Shown one piece after another: positions 2,377 to 33,653 of a DNA stretch of 61,251 nt. The notes below the pieces were generated by a model that saw nothing but the letters and a program-made list of their open reading frames with translations, was not told the origin of the DNA and searched no databases. How positions within the stretch are numbered: position 1 is the stretch's first letter; each line of letters opens with the position of its first letter. Position numbers and translations under genes: made by a program. Source of the stretch: Natrinema mahii (GTDB lineage Archaea; Halobacteriota; Halobacteria; Halobacteriales; Natrialbaceae); NCBI GenBank assembly GCA_000690595.2, contig JHUT02000005.1, positions 1 to 61,251 on the forward strand, read 5' to 3'.

Positions 2377-2845
2377 CTATCCGGCCGGCGGGTTCTCGCC
2401 TCGAGCCCGAAGCCCGACGGCGAGTCCCGCGACGATTCCGAGCCCGGTCGCGATCACGATCGAACCGATCACGCCTGCTCGGAGCGAGACGAGCGCGACG
2501 AGCAAGACGGTGAGGACGGTGACGCCGAACGCCCCGAGGCCTATAGTAGCCACTGAAAGTCATTGCACATCTGATCGCACGACAGCGTCGTGATCAGTGT
2601 GTGAATCGTTTCAGTGGCTACTATAGCGCGAGCGGGTGGGGCGTCCCGTCCGCGTGCCGTCCGAACTGGACGAAAACGACGGCTGCGACCAGGACGCCGG
2701 CCCCGACCCCGGCTGGCAGGCCGACGAGTACCGAGAACTCGATTGCCGGGACCAGCAGCTCCGACACGGCGACGACGACGACGAGAAACGCTGCGATACC
2801 CGCCGCCGCGGCGTAGCCGAGCGTTCGACCGCGCATTTCACTCAC
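2377..2845 (-). pseudogene. Four-TM membrane protein gene split by an 86-bp palindrome
   Basis: Reading the minus strand from ATG 2845, a 74-codon ORF encodes two hydrophobic helices. It stops at 2621-2623 inside the palindrome (last codon CTA, stop TAG, both from the repeat). Beyond the palindrome the minus strand resumes with a typical haloarchaeal membrane sequence, starting GLGAFGVTVLTVLLVALV and ending GENPPAG before a TAG at 2377-2379. Removing 85 bp joins the halves in frame into about 127 residues with four TM segments. The second half is not visible as a normal ORF because its start is lost. The inference is that the palindrome interrupted one gene. The function of the intact protein is unknown. 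Confidence 0.7.
2541..2626. repeat. Palindromic element, copy 1 (86 bp)
   Basis: It begins CTATAGTAGCCACTGAAA and ends with the complementary TTTCAGTGGCTACTATAG; the inner arms are also complementary, with a few mismatches. It matches four other copies in this window (4065, 11708, 30594, 33569). It lies inside a membrane-protein gene on the minus strand. No ORF of its own is visible, which fits a non-autonomous mobile palindrome (MITE-like) rather than an IS. Confidence 0.93.
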
Positions 2846-4064: not shown

Positions 4065-4150
4065 CTATAGTAGCTCTTGAAACGATTTACACACCGATCA
4101 CAACGCTGCCCTGCGGTCGGGTGTGCAGTGACTTTCAAGAGCTACTATAG
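4065..4150. repeat. Palindromic element, copy 2 (86 bp)
   Basis: Same CTATAGTAG...CTACTATAG ends as the other copies, but the inner sequence is in the opposite orientation (GAAACGATTTACACACC on the left). It lies between convergent genes (RHH protein and pus10). The last codon (CTA) and stop (TAG) of pus10, 4145-4150, are part of the element. Confidence 0.92.
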
Positions 4151-5476
4151 GAAGTACGCCTCGCGTTCGAACGGTTCGTTTTCGCCTTCGACGCCGGTCA
4201 CGTCCAGCGCCGTCACCTCGGCGTCGGTCTCGAGCAGCCCCGCCAGACTCGGCTCGGTCCGGCCGCCGTCGCTGCTGATCAGTTCCTTCACGTAGAGCCC
4301 GCCCTCGCCGTGGAGTCGGACCTCGGCCTCGGTCGGAGATCGCAGATCGCCGTCGATGGCGTAGACGGTCCGCTCGCGGGTCAGCCCCGCCCGCCGGTGG
4401 TCGACCCGCTCGGGCGTGTACTGCTCGACGGTCGTCCCCTCGAGTTCGGCGAGGGCGGTCTCGAAGGCGTCCTCGTCGACCGACTCGGCGAACTCGACGT
4501 CGGCGCGATAGTGCTTGCTCGCGTCGTGTTCCTTGACGCGCTCGACCATCTCGTAGGTCGCCAGCCGCAGGCCGTCGACCTCGACCGCGCCCGCGGCGGC
4601 CTCGTTGATCTCGGCCTCGAGTTCGGCCGGGTCGGGGTCGCGCACCGCGGGGCGTTTCACCTCGAGGACGAACGGTCGTCCCCCCTCGAGCATGCGGGCG
4701 TCGACGTCCTCGCGGCCCGCGCCGTGGAAGGTGCCCTCGTCGCCGTCCATGGCGTCGACGACGTGGGGCCGGACGACCTGTTCGACACTGGTGTCGTACA
4801 TGTAGCCGGAGCCGCCGCAGTAGTCACAGGGCTCCTCGCCGTCGTCGCCCAACTGAATGCCGCTGCCGCCACACTCCCGGCACGGCCACTCGGTCTGGGG
4901 AATGTCCCGCTCGAGTTTGCGATAGCGGCCGTAGACGAACGCGGGGTTGATCTGGACGTCGACCGCGTGGCTCGTGACCGTCTCCGCCTCGAGGGCCTCG
5001 AGCGGGTCGAACCCCGCGAGATCGACGACCGCGAGGACGTCCGGTCGGTCGAAGTCGACGTCCGTGCCGGTTGTCGCGCCGACGCGGCGGCCGACTTCGC
5101 GGTTCATCTCGCGTTTCATCGACTCGCCGGCGTCGGGCTCGAGGTCGGCGTCCTCCCGGAGCAGGCGCTCGTTCTCCTCGACCAGCGGCGGGACGCGGGT
5201 CCCGACCTGGTAGGTGGCGAACTCGGTTCCCTCGAGGGCGTCGACGATCGTCTCGGCGACGGCGTCGAACGTGCCGCAGTAGCCCTCACAGACCCAGCAG
5301 TCCGCGGGCGCGGTCGGTTCGAAGTCCTCGTCGTCGGCCAGCGCGACGGTCGTCCGCAGCGCCCGACCGCGTTCGGCGTTGGTCAGCCCGAAACTGCGAT
5401 CGGCGAAGGGCCGTCCGAGACAGGAGTCACAGACGGGTCCCGTCGCCAGCAACGCGCGGGCGTCTTCCGTGATCAT
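4145..5476 (-). CDS. pus10: tRNA pseudouridine synthase Pus10 (positions 54/55)
   Basis: A 443-aa protein from the ATG at 5476 (MITEDARALLATGPVCDSC). In archaea Pus10 makes pseudouridine at tRNA positions 55 and 54. Two CxxC pairs (CDSCLGRPF and CWVCEGYC) form the N-terminal zinc site of the THUMP-like domain. The catalytic core includes HGAGREDVDARML (catalytic Asp region) and GRPFVLEVKRP. A second zinc-binding stretch, CRECGGSG...CDYCGGSG, resembles the DnaJ zinc repeat and sits inside the catalytic half. An upstream ATG at 5578 would add a 34-residue Arg-rich extension and was rejected. The stop codon is supplied by palindrome copy 2. TrmY, encoded 3 kb away, methylates the position-54 product. 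Confidence 0.94.
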   Translation of the reverse strand: MITEDARALLATGPVCDSCLGRPFADRSFGLTNAERGRALRTTVALADDEDFEPTAPADCWVCEGYCGTFDAVAETIVDALEGTEFATYQVGTRVPPLVEENERLLREDADLEPDAGESMKREMNREVGRRVGATTGTDVDFDRPDVLAVVDLAGFDPLEALEAETVTSHAVDVQINPAFVYGRYRKLERDIPQTEWPCRECGGSGIQLGDDGEEPCDYCGGSGYMYDTSVEQVVRPHVVDAMDGDEGTFHGAGREDVDARMLEGGRPFVLEVKRPAVRDPDPAELEAEINEAAAGAVEVDGLRLATYEMVERVKEHDASKHYRADVEFAESVDEDAFETALAELEGTTVEQYTPERVDHRRAGLTRERTVYAIDGDLRSPTEAEVRLHGEGGLYVKELISSDGGRTEPSLAGLLETDAEVTALDVTGVEGENEPFEREAYFL

Positions 5477-5637
5477 ATCTCGGGACTCGGGGAGCCGCGG
5501 GTAACACGTTTTCCCTTCGCGGGGCCGACCGCGGCGTCGACGACGGATACCGTCCGATTCGGTGACGACCGCCGGCACCCCCGAACGCGCCGAGCGCTAG
5601 CCACGGCGTTCAAATGGTTCGGGTCCAAGGACACGAC

Positions 5638-11608: not shown

Positions 11609-11713
11609 ATGCACGTTGTTGGTGTGATTGCTGTTATGATCGGTCTGGCGATCTCTGCAACGATTATCGGTATGATAGTTGGTTTGCCCGCAGCAGGTCC
11701 CGGCGTACTATAG
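11609..11713 (+). CDS. Tiny single-TM ORF at island end, stopped by the palindrome
   Basis: 34 codons starting 3 bp after the nuclease-like gene: one hydrophobic helix (VIAVMIGLAISATIIGMIVG) and a short tail. The last codon (CTA) and stop (TAG) belong to palindrome copy 3. It may be the stump of a longer membrane protein cut by the element, or a genuine mini-membrane component of the cassette. The close spacing argues for co-translation. Too short to assign a family. Confidence 0.45.
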   Translation: MHVVGVIAVMIGLAISATIIGMIVGLPAAGPGVL

Positions 11714-11793
11714 TAGTCGCTGAAAGTCATTGCACACCTGATCGCATGACAGCGTTGCGATCAGTGTGTAAATCGTTTCAACGGCTACTATAG
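11708..11793. repeat. Palindromic element, copy 3 (86 bp) at the island/PPOX border
   Basis: Near-identical to copy 1: CTATAGTAGTCGCTGAAA on the left and TTTCAACGGCTACTATAG on the right. Both flanks are coding and run into it; on each side the codon CTA followed by stop TAG comes from the element. It marks the junction between AT-rich island DNA and high-GC chromosomal DNA. Confidence 0.93.
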
Positions 11794-12090: not shown

Positions 12091-12204
12091 GGACCACGGT
12101 TCACCGGCCCCGTTCTTGGGCGTGGTGCCGACAACGGCTGGGACCGAGGCCTCGCCGACTCCCGTGGCGAAACCGTTACCGGCCCTCGGTTCCTCCCTCG
12201 AGTG

Positions 12205-14502: not shown

Positions 14503-15519
14503 TCACCCGGTTTCGTTGGCTGGCGTGTCGTTTTCGCTCTCGTTGACTGCCGTCTCGTTCTCGCCCCGTGGCTGCTCGAGGGCGGCCTGTAACCCGTCGG
14601 TTTCACCGAGGGTGACGCTGCTCGCGGCGACGTCGTCGATCGTCATCGATCCGGCCTCGAGCGACGGGATCGTCTCGCCCATCGCCGTCTCGTTGTCGGC
14701 GGTTTCGTTCGTCGCCGTTTCGTTGCTAGCCGTCTCGTTGTCGGCGGTTTCGTTCCCGTCGGCCTGCACCTCGAGGCTGCCGACGGTCATCGCGGTCACC
14801 GTGATCTCGTCGACGTCGAACGCCGCGACGGTCAGGTCTTCGATCTCCTGGGTGCTGGCGTTCTCGCTCTCGTTGGCCTCGCCGTCGCCGTCACCGCCGA
14901 ACAGGCCGCCGACGAAGTCGGAGATCCCCGAGAGGATGCCGCCGCCGTCGTCCTCGACGGTCAGGTCCTCGACGGTCAGTTGCTCGGTGGTCATCGACTC
15001 GATCGTCATGTTTCCGACCGTGACGTTCGTGGCCTCCTCGTCGATCGCCTGCCCGATGCCGGCCGACGAGGCGTTCTCGCCGGCGGCGCTCCCGTTGTCG
15101 GTCGCGTTGGCCCCGTCGGCTCCGCCCAGTTCCTCGATCGAGACGTTCTCGAGCGCGAGCGACTCGAACGCGACGTTCGAGATCGTGACCTCGCCGTCGG
15201 CGGACTCGTTGCCGGCCGCGGTTTCGTTCCCGTCGGACCGGTCGCTCGCGGACTCGTTCAGTTCGCCCTCGAGTCCCTCGCTGTTCTGGATGTCCAACTG
15301 CTGGACGCCGAGTTCTTCGATCGTCGCGTTTCGAACCGTGACGTTCTCGAGTTCGAGCGTTCCGACCTGGACGTTTTCCAGCGTTGCGCTCGTGTCGCTC
15401 GTGTCTCCGGGGTCGTCGTTCGCGGCCGGCGCGGTCGCCCCTGCGAGGGCGGGACCCCCCGAGAGCGCGACCAGCACGGCGACGAACGCGACACCGAGTG
15501 TTCGTGGTCGTGAAACCAT
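14503..15519 (-). CDS. Secreted, N-glycosylation-sequon-rich repeat protein
   Basis: A 338-aa protein. It has a Sec-type signal peptide (about residues 1-27, ending ALAGATA) and then an exceptionally acidic, Asn-rich chain. Short hydrophobic repeats such as LENVTVRNATIEEL and MTIESMTTEQLTVEDL suggest a stacked beta-strand (solenoid-like) fold. N-x-S/T sequons occur throughout, including a run of NETA/NETAD units near residues 250-275. No C-terminal TM or sorting motif is seen, so it is probably released or held by another protein. Role unknown; heavy surface glycosylation is an inference. Confidence 0.82.
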   Translation of the reverse strand: MVSRPRTLGVAFVAVLVALSGGPALAGATAPAANDDPGDTSDTSATLENVQVGTLELENVTVRNATIEELGVQQLDIQNSEGLEGELNESASDRSDGNETAAGNESADGEVTISNVAFESLALENVSIEELGGADGANATDNGSAAGENASSAGIGQAIDEEATNVTVGNMTIESMTTEQLTVEDLTVEDDGGGILSGISDFVGGLFGGDGDGEANESENASTQEIEDLTVAAFDVDEITVTAMTVGSLEVQADGNETADNETASNETATNETADNETAMGETIPSLEAGSMTIDDVAASSVTLGETDGLQAALEQPRGENETAVNESENDTPANETG

Positions 15520-29673: not shown

Positions 29674-30957
29674 ATCTACGCCCGCGCCGACCGCCGCCAT
29701 TAGTATGCGATCCGTATCGCCAGCGCGACGTGACCGCTCGAGGCGAGGCTGCGGTTTCGTTTCCGTTTCGGACCGTCTATCGCTCCGTCCCGTCCGGCCA
29801 ATCTCCGATTGGACCCGCTCCGATGCAGTCGCTGTCCGTACGGTCAAGCGGACGAATTGCTATAGCAATATATCATTTATGGCGTGCCAGCCGCATGGAC
29901 GAATCCTCGTTTCGCGCCCGGAGCAAGCGCTATCCGGCCCGAGCCGCCCGACCGTCCCGACCGACGGGCGGACCACCGATCGATTCGTCTCCTCCCAGCC
30001 GTCGGCGTTGCTCAGTTCACGTGTGTTCTACGAGACGACGGTAACGGTCCCAGCCACGACCGGGGCCGGACCGCGACGGCCGGCCGCAACGTTGCAGCCG
30101 AGTCGCCGCGCGTCGGACGATCGAGTCCCACGACACCACCGACAGATCGAGTCGGTATCGACCGTCCGGAACGGTCGGTTTTCGGGCCGTGACCCCGGGG
30201 CTGTGAGGCCAGTAACGGCGGTCCCCGATCGCCGAACGAGGTCGGTTCCGTCGGACTCGAGCGGGCCGGGTCCCACGACGAGTACGGTCACCGTCGACCG
30301 ATCACTGCAATCGAGTCGCCCGCGACGATCGAACGCGCGAGTCAGCGGGTCGTCGGCCGGGTGAGCCCTGCGTCGGCGGTCGATCATTCCGGTCGGGCCA
30401 TCGACTCGAACCCGCCTCGTCGACTGCGGAGCGGTCCCGCGGGGGGCGTTTCGGCCGGCGCTACTCGCGGGACCCACGGCCGTCTCCCACCCAGGGGACG
30501 GTCTCGTCAGTCCCGCCCGTCAGTACCGAACGCCGTGCGGATCGGGCACGCCGCTCGAGTCTCCCGACGGATTCGACCGGAGACGTTTGCTACCGATAGT
30601 AGCCGCTGAACGTCATTGCATACCTGATCGACCAACGGCGTTGCGATCAGTGTGTGAATCGTTGCAGCGGCGACTATCGATCGGTGCGTTTCGGCACCCA
30701 ATTCCTCGAGCGGTCGCGTTCCGAGTCCGCGGTAGTCGACGGTGTTCTCCCCCCGAACGCCACCTATAAATCACATATGACGATACAGAAATGGAGTTCG
30801 GGATTCGACAGCCCTCACTCGAGCGGCGCTGTGGCTGCGGCGGCCCGCGTCTGGGAGGGGGCGACTTCGAATGACGAGTAACACCCGTTGAGAGTCTCTC
30901 TCGCGGGACATTTCGGCGCTAGGTTTACCCCTGTCGACGGCCTTTCGAACGGTAGTA
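29674..30957. other. Gene-poor 1.3-kb stretch
   Basis: ORFs here (for example 29705-30364 plus and 30028-30477 minus) are Arg/Ser/Pro-rich and look like shadows. It holds a perfect 14-bp palindrome ATTGCTATAGCAAT at 29856-29869 in an AT-rich patch, palindromic element copy 4 (30594-30679), and a TATA-like CCTATAAATC near 30761. Since a kinase remnant follows, it may be decayed coding DNA. Confidence 0.5.
30594..30679. repeat. Palindromic element, copy 4 (86 bp, diverged ends)
   Basis: Begins CGATAGTAGCCGCTGAAC and ends GCAGCGGCGACTATCG. The outer pairs changed together (CGATAG/CTATCG instead of CTATAG on both sides), so self-complementarity is kept. It lies in the gene-poor stretch before the kinase remnant. 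Confidence 0.9.
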
Positions 30958-31905: not shown

Positions 31906-33584
31906 GCGAGACCGACACCAGAGCGGAGGGCGACGCCCTCCGCGTCCTCCTGATCGAGGACAACCCCGGTGACGCCCGGCTGATCCAGGAGATGCTTCGG
32001 GACACCGAGGAGTTGGCCCAGCGGGTCAGCCCCGGCGACGCGGCCGGCAGGGAACCCGAGATCGTCCGCGAAACCCGCCTCGAGGACGGGCTCGGGACTG
32101 CCGATGCCGAGCCGACCGACATCGTGCTGCTCGATCTGAACCTCCCCGACAGCGAGGGCCTCGCGACCCTCGAGACGGTCCACGAGGAGACCGGCGGGAC
32201 GCCGATCGTCGTGCTGACGGGGGTACGCGATCAGCAGGTCGGGGTCAAGGCGATCCAGCGGGGCGCACAGGACTTCCTCGTCAAGGACGAGGTGACCAGC
32301 GAACTGCTGGTGCGGACGATCCATCACGCGATCGAGCGCGCTCATCAGGAGCGACAGCGCCGCCAGCAACGCGAGCAGCTCGAGGCGCTGAACCGCCTCA
32401 ATCGGATCGGCCACGACATCAGCCACGCGGTGATCACGACCGAGACGCGCGCGGAACTCGAGCAGCAGGTCTGTGATCGGCTCGCGGCCTCGGACGCCTA
32501 CCGGTTCGCGTGGATCGGCGGCGTCAACCCGGGCAGCGACCGCATCGTCCCGAAGGCGGCCGCCGGCGTCGAGGACGGCTACCTCGACGAGATCGACGTC
32601 TCCGTCACCGAGGACGACGAGACCGGACGGGGGCCGGCCGGAACGGCCGTCCGGACCGGCGAGGTGCAGGTCATGAACGACGCGCAGGCGGATCCGGCGT
32701 TCGGACCGTGGCGGGAGGCCGCACGCTCCCGCGGTTATCGGTCGTCGGCCGCGGTCCCGATCGTCCACGAGGATCTCGTCTACGGCGTGTTGAACGTCTA
32801 CTCGTCGTCGCCGCGGGCGTTCGTAGGGGCCGAGACCGAGGTCCTCGCCCGGACCGGCGACGTCATCGCCCACGCGATCACGGCGATCGAACGCAAGGAC
32901 GCCCTCGTCAGCGACGCCGTCGTCGAACTCGAGTTCCGCGTCGAGGACATGGCGGAGGAACTGGTCGAACTCTCGGCGGCGGAGTCGTGTACGATCGAGT
33001 TCGAACAACTGGTCGGCGGCGACGAGGCGCTGTTGGCCTACGGCACGGCACGCGGCGTCTCGCAGGAGGAGTTCGAGGACACCATTGACGACACCGACGG
33101 GATCGGCAACGTTCGGTTCCTCTCGATCAGGCGCGACGAACTCGAGTTCGAACTCGTCGCTCCGGCGGCGGTGTCGCTGTTCGAGACGATCGCGACCCAC
33201 GGCGGCCGCGTCGCGTCGGCAACGATCGCCGACGGCGAGTTCCGGTTCGTCGTCGAACTGCCGCGGGGCCGGGACACGCGCCGGATGATCGAACTCATTC
33301 AGGACCAGCGCGCCGACGCGACCTACCTCGCCCAGCGGACGACCGAGCGGAGCGACCGCAGCGACGCCGGCCCGTCGTCGGTCCTCGCGGACGAACTGAC
33401 CGACAAACAGCGGGCGGCCCTCGAGACGGCTTACTTCGCGGGCTACTTCGACTGGCCGCGGGGGAGTACGGGCGAGGAGATCGCCGAGCGCCTCGGCATC
33501 GCGCCCGCGACGTTCAACCAGCACCTGCGGACGGCCGAGCGAAAGTTCTTCGAGTCGGTCTTCGGCGAGTACAGTAGCCACTGA
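31902..33584 (+). CDS. Receiver-GAF-HTH_10 regulator; C-terminus runs into palindrome
   Basis: A 560-aa protein. The receiver (about 12-140) has [19 protein letters not shown], phospho-Asp in [17 protein letters not shown], and Lys in [12 protein letters not shown]. Next come a coiled linker, GAF (about 165-330; [22 protein letters not shown]), a bacterio-opsin-activator domain (about 340-490) and HTH_10 ([34 protein letters not shown]...[17 protein letters not shown]). The last four residues (YSSH) and the TGA stop derive from palindrome copy 5. ATGA overlap with the Rcp1-like gene indicates coupling. A phosphorelay-controlled transcription factor is the likely role. Confidence 0.92.
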
Positions 33585-33653
33585 CAGTCACTGCACACCC
33601 GATCACACAGTCGTCTGCGATCGCTGTGTAACTCGTTTCAGTTGTCACTATCG
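33569..33653. repeat. Palindromic element, copy 5 (85 bp)
   Basis: Starts GTACAGTAGCCACTGACA and ends TTTCAGTTGTCACTATCG, the most diverged and 1 bp shorter copy. It supplies the stop of the upstream regulator (33582-33584) and lies about 130 bp before dpsA on the same strand, where it could also act as a transcription terminator. Confidence 0.88.

Follow-up and report, generated by a model that had tools for sequence, protein, structure and literature searches.

The window analyzed here, the 61,251-base stretch at bases 1–61251 of contig 5 in a 3.79-Mb haloarchaeal genome of 24 contigs (G000), carries on its minus strand a small gene that adjoins rnhB, the gene for RNase HII, and holds a palindromic repeat within its reading frame. 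Further copies of the repeat lie elsewhere in the window, one of them at the end of a gene at 4145–5578 that NCBIfam TIGR01213 identifies as encoding the tRNA pseudouridine synthase Pus10. The features are as follows.

2377..2541, minus strand: 3′ part of the membrane-protein gene, residues 72–125 plus stop
2541..2541, no strand: C of the CTAG target (C here in 44 of 49 own copies)
2542..2543, no strand: TA target-site duplication, left side as read on the plus strand (net insertion 82 = 80 + 2)
2544..2623, no strand: 80-bp palindromic core of the probable miniature inverted-repeat element (MITE), TAGTAGCC...GGCTACTA, without transposase coding capacity
2624..2625, no strand: TA target-site duplication, right side as read on the plus strand (net insertion 82 = 80 + 2)
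2624..2836, minus strand: 5′ part of the same gene, residues 1–71 from ATG 2836, ending in TAG TAG from the element
2626..2626, no strand: G of the CTAG target (G here in 40 of 49 own copies)
4065..4150, minus strand: second copy of the probable MITE, of a divergent TAGTAGCTCTTGAAA subfamily, at the 3′ end of the Pus10 gene
11708..11793, plus strand: third copy
30594..30679, plus strand: fourth copy, with outer ends CGATAG...CTATCG
33569..33653, plus strand: fifth copy, degenerate

The first half of the interrupted gene translates as ...TPHPLAL and then meets two consecutive TAG stops, both of which are element sequence; the second half reads ...GLGAFGVTVLTVLLVALV...NPPAG, with its stop ending at 2377. 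Rejoining the flanks by script yields MRGRTLGY...TPHPLALGLGAFGV...NPPAG, an uninterrupted protein of 125 residues from the ATG, or 128 from an alternative GTG start at 2845. An earlier note on this DNA had proposed that removing 85 bp restores a single protein of about 127 residues. The single protein and its frame hold, as 82 and 85 are both 1 modulo 3, but the insert length does not: the net insertion is 82 bp, and excising 85 drops one residue. We accordingly rejected the 85-bp insert; the outermost C and G are part of the CTAG target and lie outside the element. Two hydropathy peaks, at residues 14–32 and 36–54, precede the break, and one long hydrophobic stretch, residues 71–113, follows it; the earlier note had counted two transmembrane helices on either side, and the intact protein is described as a four-helix membrane protein.

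Two genomes of the same genus, G014 and G025, are approximately 86–92% identical in DNA sequence to ours in this region and have the two flanks directly adjacent, encoding one 125-residue protein beside RNase HII, so the split is not a product of chance. Homologs in four further genomes (G012, G005, G003 and G006) also cross the break point without an insert, such that all six same-genus homologs run through the site as one protein. When the G014 protein was searched against 81 genomes of the family, it aligned in one piece in G025 (residues 1–125) and G012 (residues 1–118), in two pieces in our genome (residues 1–72, 86% identical to the 5′ part, and residues 70–125, 73% identical to the 3′ part) and more weakly in other genera. 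These results bear out the earlier note, which had described a membrane-protein gene split by the palindrome into halves of compatible frame and a palindrome that inserted into coding DNA and was not always there. The two checks it had suggested, comparing the rejoined protein with homologs and looking for an empty site in relatives, both came out in its favor; homologs ending at the first half, or carrying a dissimilar second half, were not seen among those examined. The element brings two in-frame TAG stops, so the split gene has, most likely, recently turned into a pseudogene and lost its function. A GTG at 2553, within the element's end, could in principle serve as a start codon for the second half.

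Comparison with the empty sites defines the insertion. On the plus strand, our genome reads GAGGC-CTATAG...CTATAG-CGCGAG, G014 reads GAGGC-TCAG-CGCGAG and G025 reads GAGGC-CCAG-CGCGAG; the 82-bp difference from G014 comprises an 80-bp element and a duplicated TA. At the copy in the Pus10 gene (4065–4150), both relatives carry CCAG. Two copies elsewhere in the genome have a literal CTAG at the empty site, in G014 for the copy at G000:C7:59896 and in both relatives for the copy at G000:C4:90672. The four occupied/empty comparisons are independent and all agree, with a literal CTAG at two of them. Since the relatives have TCAG or CCAG at the two window sites, CTAG is there what we infer for the ancestor. 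No empty site was available for the copies at 11708, 30594 and 33569, for which one or both flanks lack an adjacent match in the relatives, and the recent copies L047 and L048 have no usable empty site in G014 or G025. The simplest reading of these alignments is that the 80-bp core inserted at the TA of a CTAG and the TA was duplicated, which would convert CTAG to C-TA-[80]-TA-G.

The boundaries were placed from the empty sites and from base pairing among 73 distinct copies, which fades outside the core. Core pairs 4–18 are complementary in 82–100% of copies and the TA pairs in 89–93%, falling to 66% for the outermost pair (1/86); of the 49 own copies, 40 retain an intact outer TA at each end. 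The whole palindrome at 2541–2626, C-TA-[2544–2623]-TA-G, is near-perfect, and its fold as single-stranded DNA has a free energy of −27.9 kcal/mol (z = −8.6; none of 200 shuffles was as good). Some pairs vary together among copies, for example 5/82, 11/76 and 12/75, as is expected given that the inverted ends must match. No Rfam family reached its gathering score (20.6 bits over the element, against a cut-off of 37), leaving a structured RNA reading unsupported.

The genome contains approximately 50 copies, 49 of which were read with their flanks. The copy in the split gene is 97–99% identical to several others, indicating that the spread was recent. Of 293 genomes sampled from the order, 41 contain the end pattern, in 17 of 87 genera, and ours has the most exact matches, 55; the pattern also matches 51 haloarchaeal plasmid records, and no phage record.

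Several individual copies deserve mention. At 4065–4150, the terminal CTATAG supplies the stop codon of the Pus10 gene, and the short C-terminal tail found in relatives is lost. The outer left end is CGATAG instead of CTATAG, a recurrent T-to-G change beside the core, at 30594–30679 and in L042, L058, L060 and L061; two of these copies also have CTATCG on the right, and some copies have GA or TC in place of TA beside the core. Tandem or overlapping copies occur at G000:C4:183168–183333 and G000:C6:94602–94771, in L070 and as adjacent pairs in G025, some of them sharing a single CTATAG, and one copy contains an internal duplication (107 bp). A copy at G000:C5:74036–74121 is present at the same place in G014, with diverged ends, and is an older, shared insertion, unlike the recent one in the split gene. 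G014 and G025 have a common copy at a place where the window, near 12129–12162, lacks one; on its right, roughly 500 bp of sequence differ. In L045 (G000:C7:59896), a gene may terminate at the CTAG of the empty site in G014 (GAC TAG), in which case the insertion would add only a few residues to the protein, and CTAG targets may sometimes be stop codons. The window also contains, at 14671–14755, head-to-tail 15-base repeated units (D1 family, CGTTTCGTTGTCGGC-like).

The preference for CTAG extends well beyond the empty sites. In the 40 own copies flanked by TA on both sides, a C before and a G after occur together 30 times, compared with 3.6 expected from the flank composition (p ~1.6 × 10^−23). 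This target is scarce: the window contains 12 CTAG sites where trinucleotide frequencies predict 56, a depletion of about 4.6-fold. CTAG is depleted in haloarchaea generally and is likely the target of a conserved orphan methylase (PMC6471742).

Elements of the IS630 family, about 1.05 kb long, are found in this genome, in the genus and across haloarchaea. The two in our genome are L081 (G000:C2) and L082. L081, which is free of internal stops, has a helix-turn-helix frame and a DDE frame; a −1 frameshift at an A7 run would fuse the two into a 333-residue product. NCBIfam NF033545 scores above its cut-off in both frames, and Pfam DDE_3 matches with an E value of 1.2 × 10^−38. L082 has a stop in its first frame. 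Both ends of these elements are TAGTA and adjoin a TA. Of 61 distinct TATAGTA-type end pairs, collected in the genus and in further haloarchaea, C stands at the outer position in 46 and 47, an outer C/G preference that the palindrome shares. The end of the palindrome, TAGTAGCCACTGAAA, agrees with IS630 ends at 8–12 of 15 positions, five of which (TAGTA) were fixed by the search. None of the loci L081–L110 and L159–L238 contained an IS630 element with exactly this end, and DDE_3 had no match in the genus members G001, G002, G011, G013, G015 or G025, although many places there match the palindrome. In a family member, ISY100, TA duplication has been observed in vitro (PMC2170065). Judged by sequence, an IS630 element acting in trans is the best candidate for the mobilizer, not a proven one.

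Taken together, these observations point with high probability to a non-autonomous, IS630/Tc1-mariner-type MITE, moved in trans by an IS630 transposase and inserted into CTAG with TA duplication, thereby splitting the 125-residue gene. The MITE description used for Haloquadratum comprises inverted ends related to a transposon, a target duplication and no transposase (PMC3119063). Our element is short, without a transposase gene, has terminal inverted repeats and a TA target duplication, and is multicopy with four empty sites. Like other MITEs of this type, such as the eukaryotic Stowaway elements, it combines these properties with a high copy number and with ends resembling those of an autonomous IS630/mariner element, a likeness that is only moderate here. 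It differs from them in being very short (80 bp) and nearly a full hairpin, and in its strong preference for CTAG. IS630 itself, which duplicates the TA, reportedly prefers the TA in CTAG, as the title of Tenzen and Ohtsubo (1991), cited in PMC2170065, states. IS630 is autonomous and bacterial, in contrast to the palindrome, which is non-autonomous and has its autonomous relatives in haloarchaea.

Other classes of haloarchaeal repeat resemble the palindrome in part. The small mobile repeats (SMRs) of Haloquadratum (SMR-A/B, for example HqIRS41 of 80 bp; SMRs 80–110 bp) share its size, inverted ends and abundance, and the ends of the palindrome match those of IS630 without exception over TAGTA alone, so an SMR of another mobilizer with a coincidental likeness to IS630 ends might be envisaged. 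SMRs, however, have no related transposon, do not duplicate their target and use other mobile elements as insertion sites (PMC3119063); the TA duplication, the CTAG preference and the ordinary genes hit here make that assignment very unlikely. The strong hairpin and covarying pairs also recall the PATEs common in Haloquadratum, which are palindromic, transposase-free and multicopy and are relatives of IS605-type elements; PATEs have neither terminal inverted repeats nor target duplications (PMC3119063). A PATE- or REP-like hairpin moved as single-stranded DNA by an IS200/IS605 Y1 transposase would produce no target duplication, and the literal CTAG sites largely refute this; moreover, the palindrome is terminal and not subterminal, its ends resemble those of IS630 and its target is the CTAG of IS630, making such an origin extremely improbable. 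In the open literature we found no paper naming this haloarchaeal element family, which may have an earlier name; the main texts of the genome papers on Natrialba magadii and on Natrinema J7-2 contain no mention of one.

Two further alternatives concern the event itself. Excision is possible for IS630/Tc1-type elements, and the empty sites could in theory reflect precise loss of an ancestral element from the relatives instead of a gain in our genome. Such a history is scarcely credible: all six homologs lack the element at the site, the own copy is recent by its near-identity to other copies, the empty sites bear no footprint, and precise loss would have had to happen several times in the same lineages, which is unlikely. 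Alternatively, the interrupted frame might not be a real gene, in which case nothing was split. No Pfam or NCBIfam family matches the membrane protein, and dN/dS values of ~0.5–0.75 in close pairs, estimated from short sequences, indicate weak constraint; yet six other genomes of the genus conserve the open frame at its position beside rnhB, with the weaker matches in other genera of the family adding to this, and we regard a spurious frame as distinctly improbable. Selection could also keep the palindrome for reasons beyond transposition: given that some of its pairs covary, it might act as an RNA or DNA hairpin and, for instance, carry a stop or terminator module into the genes where it inserts, an idea that we consider unlikely.

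Under the IS630-type MITE reading, an IS630-family element with TAGTA... ends would make the transposase in trans, and this transposase would bind the terminal inverted repeats of the MITE and cut the element out. The insertion itself, its boundaries and the TA duplication are shown by the empty sites: the element entered the TA of a CTAG on the lineage of our genome after its split from G014 and G025, where it interrupts the four-helix gene beside rnhB; the stops that it carries would account for the presumed loss of function. Events of this kind are known, and the split is a cleanly documented example of ordinary transposon biology. For a palindrome that is widespread in the family of this archaeon, our analysis defines the boundaries, the target and the duplicated bases, and it offers a likely mobilizer. 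For annotation, it accounts for the split gene here and for the shortened Pus10. Because the element uses the depleted CTAG, a role of transposition in CTAG avoidance becomes testable.
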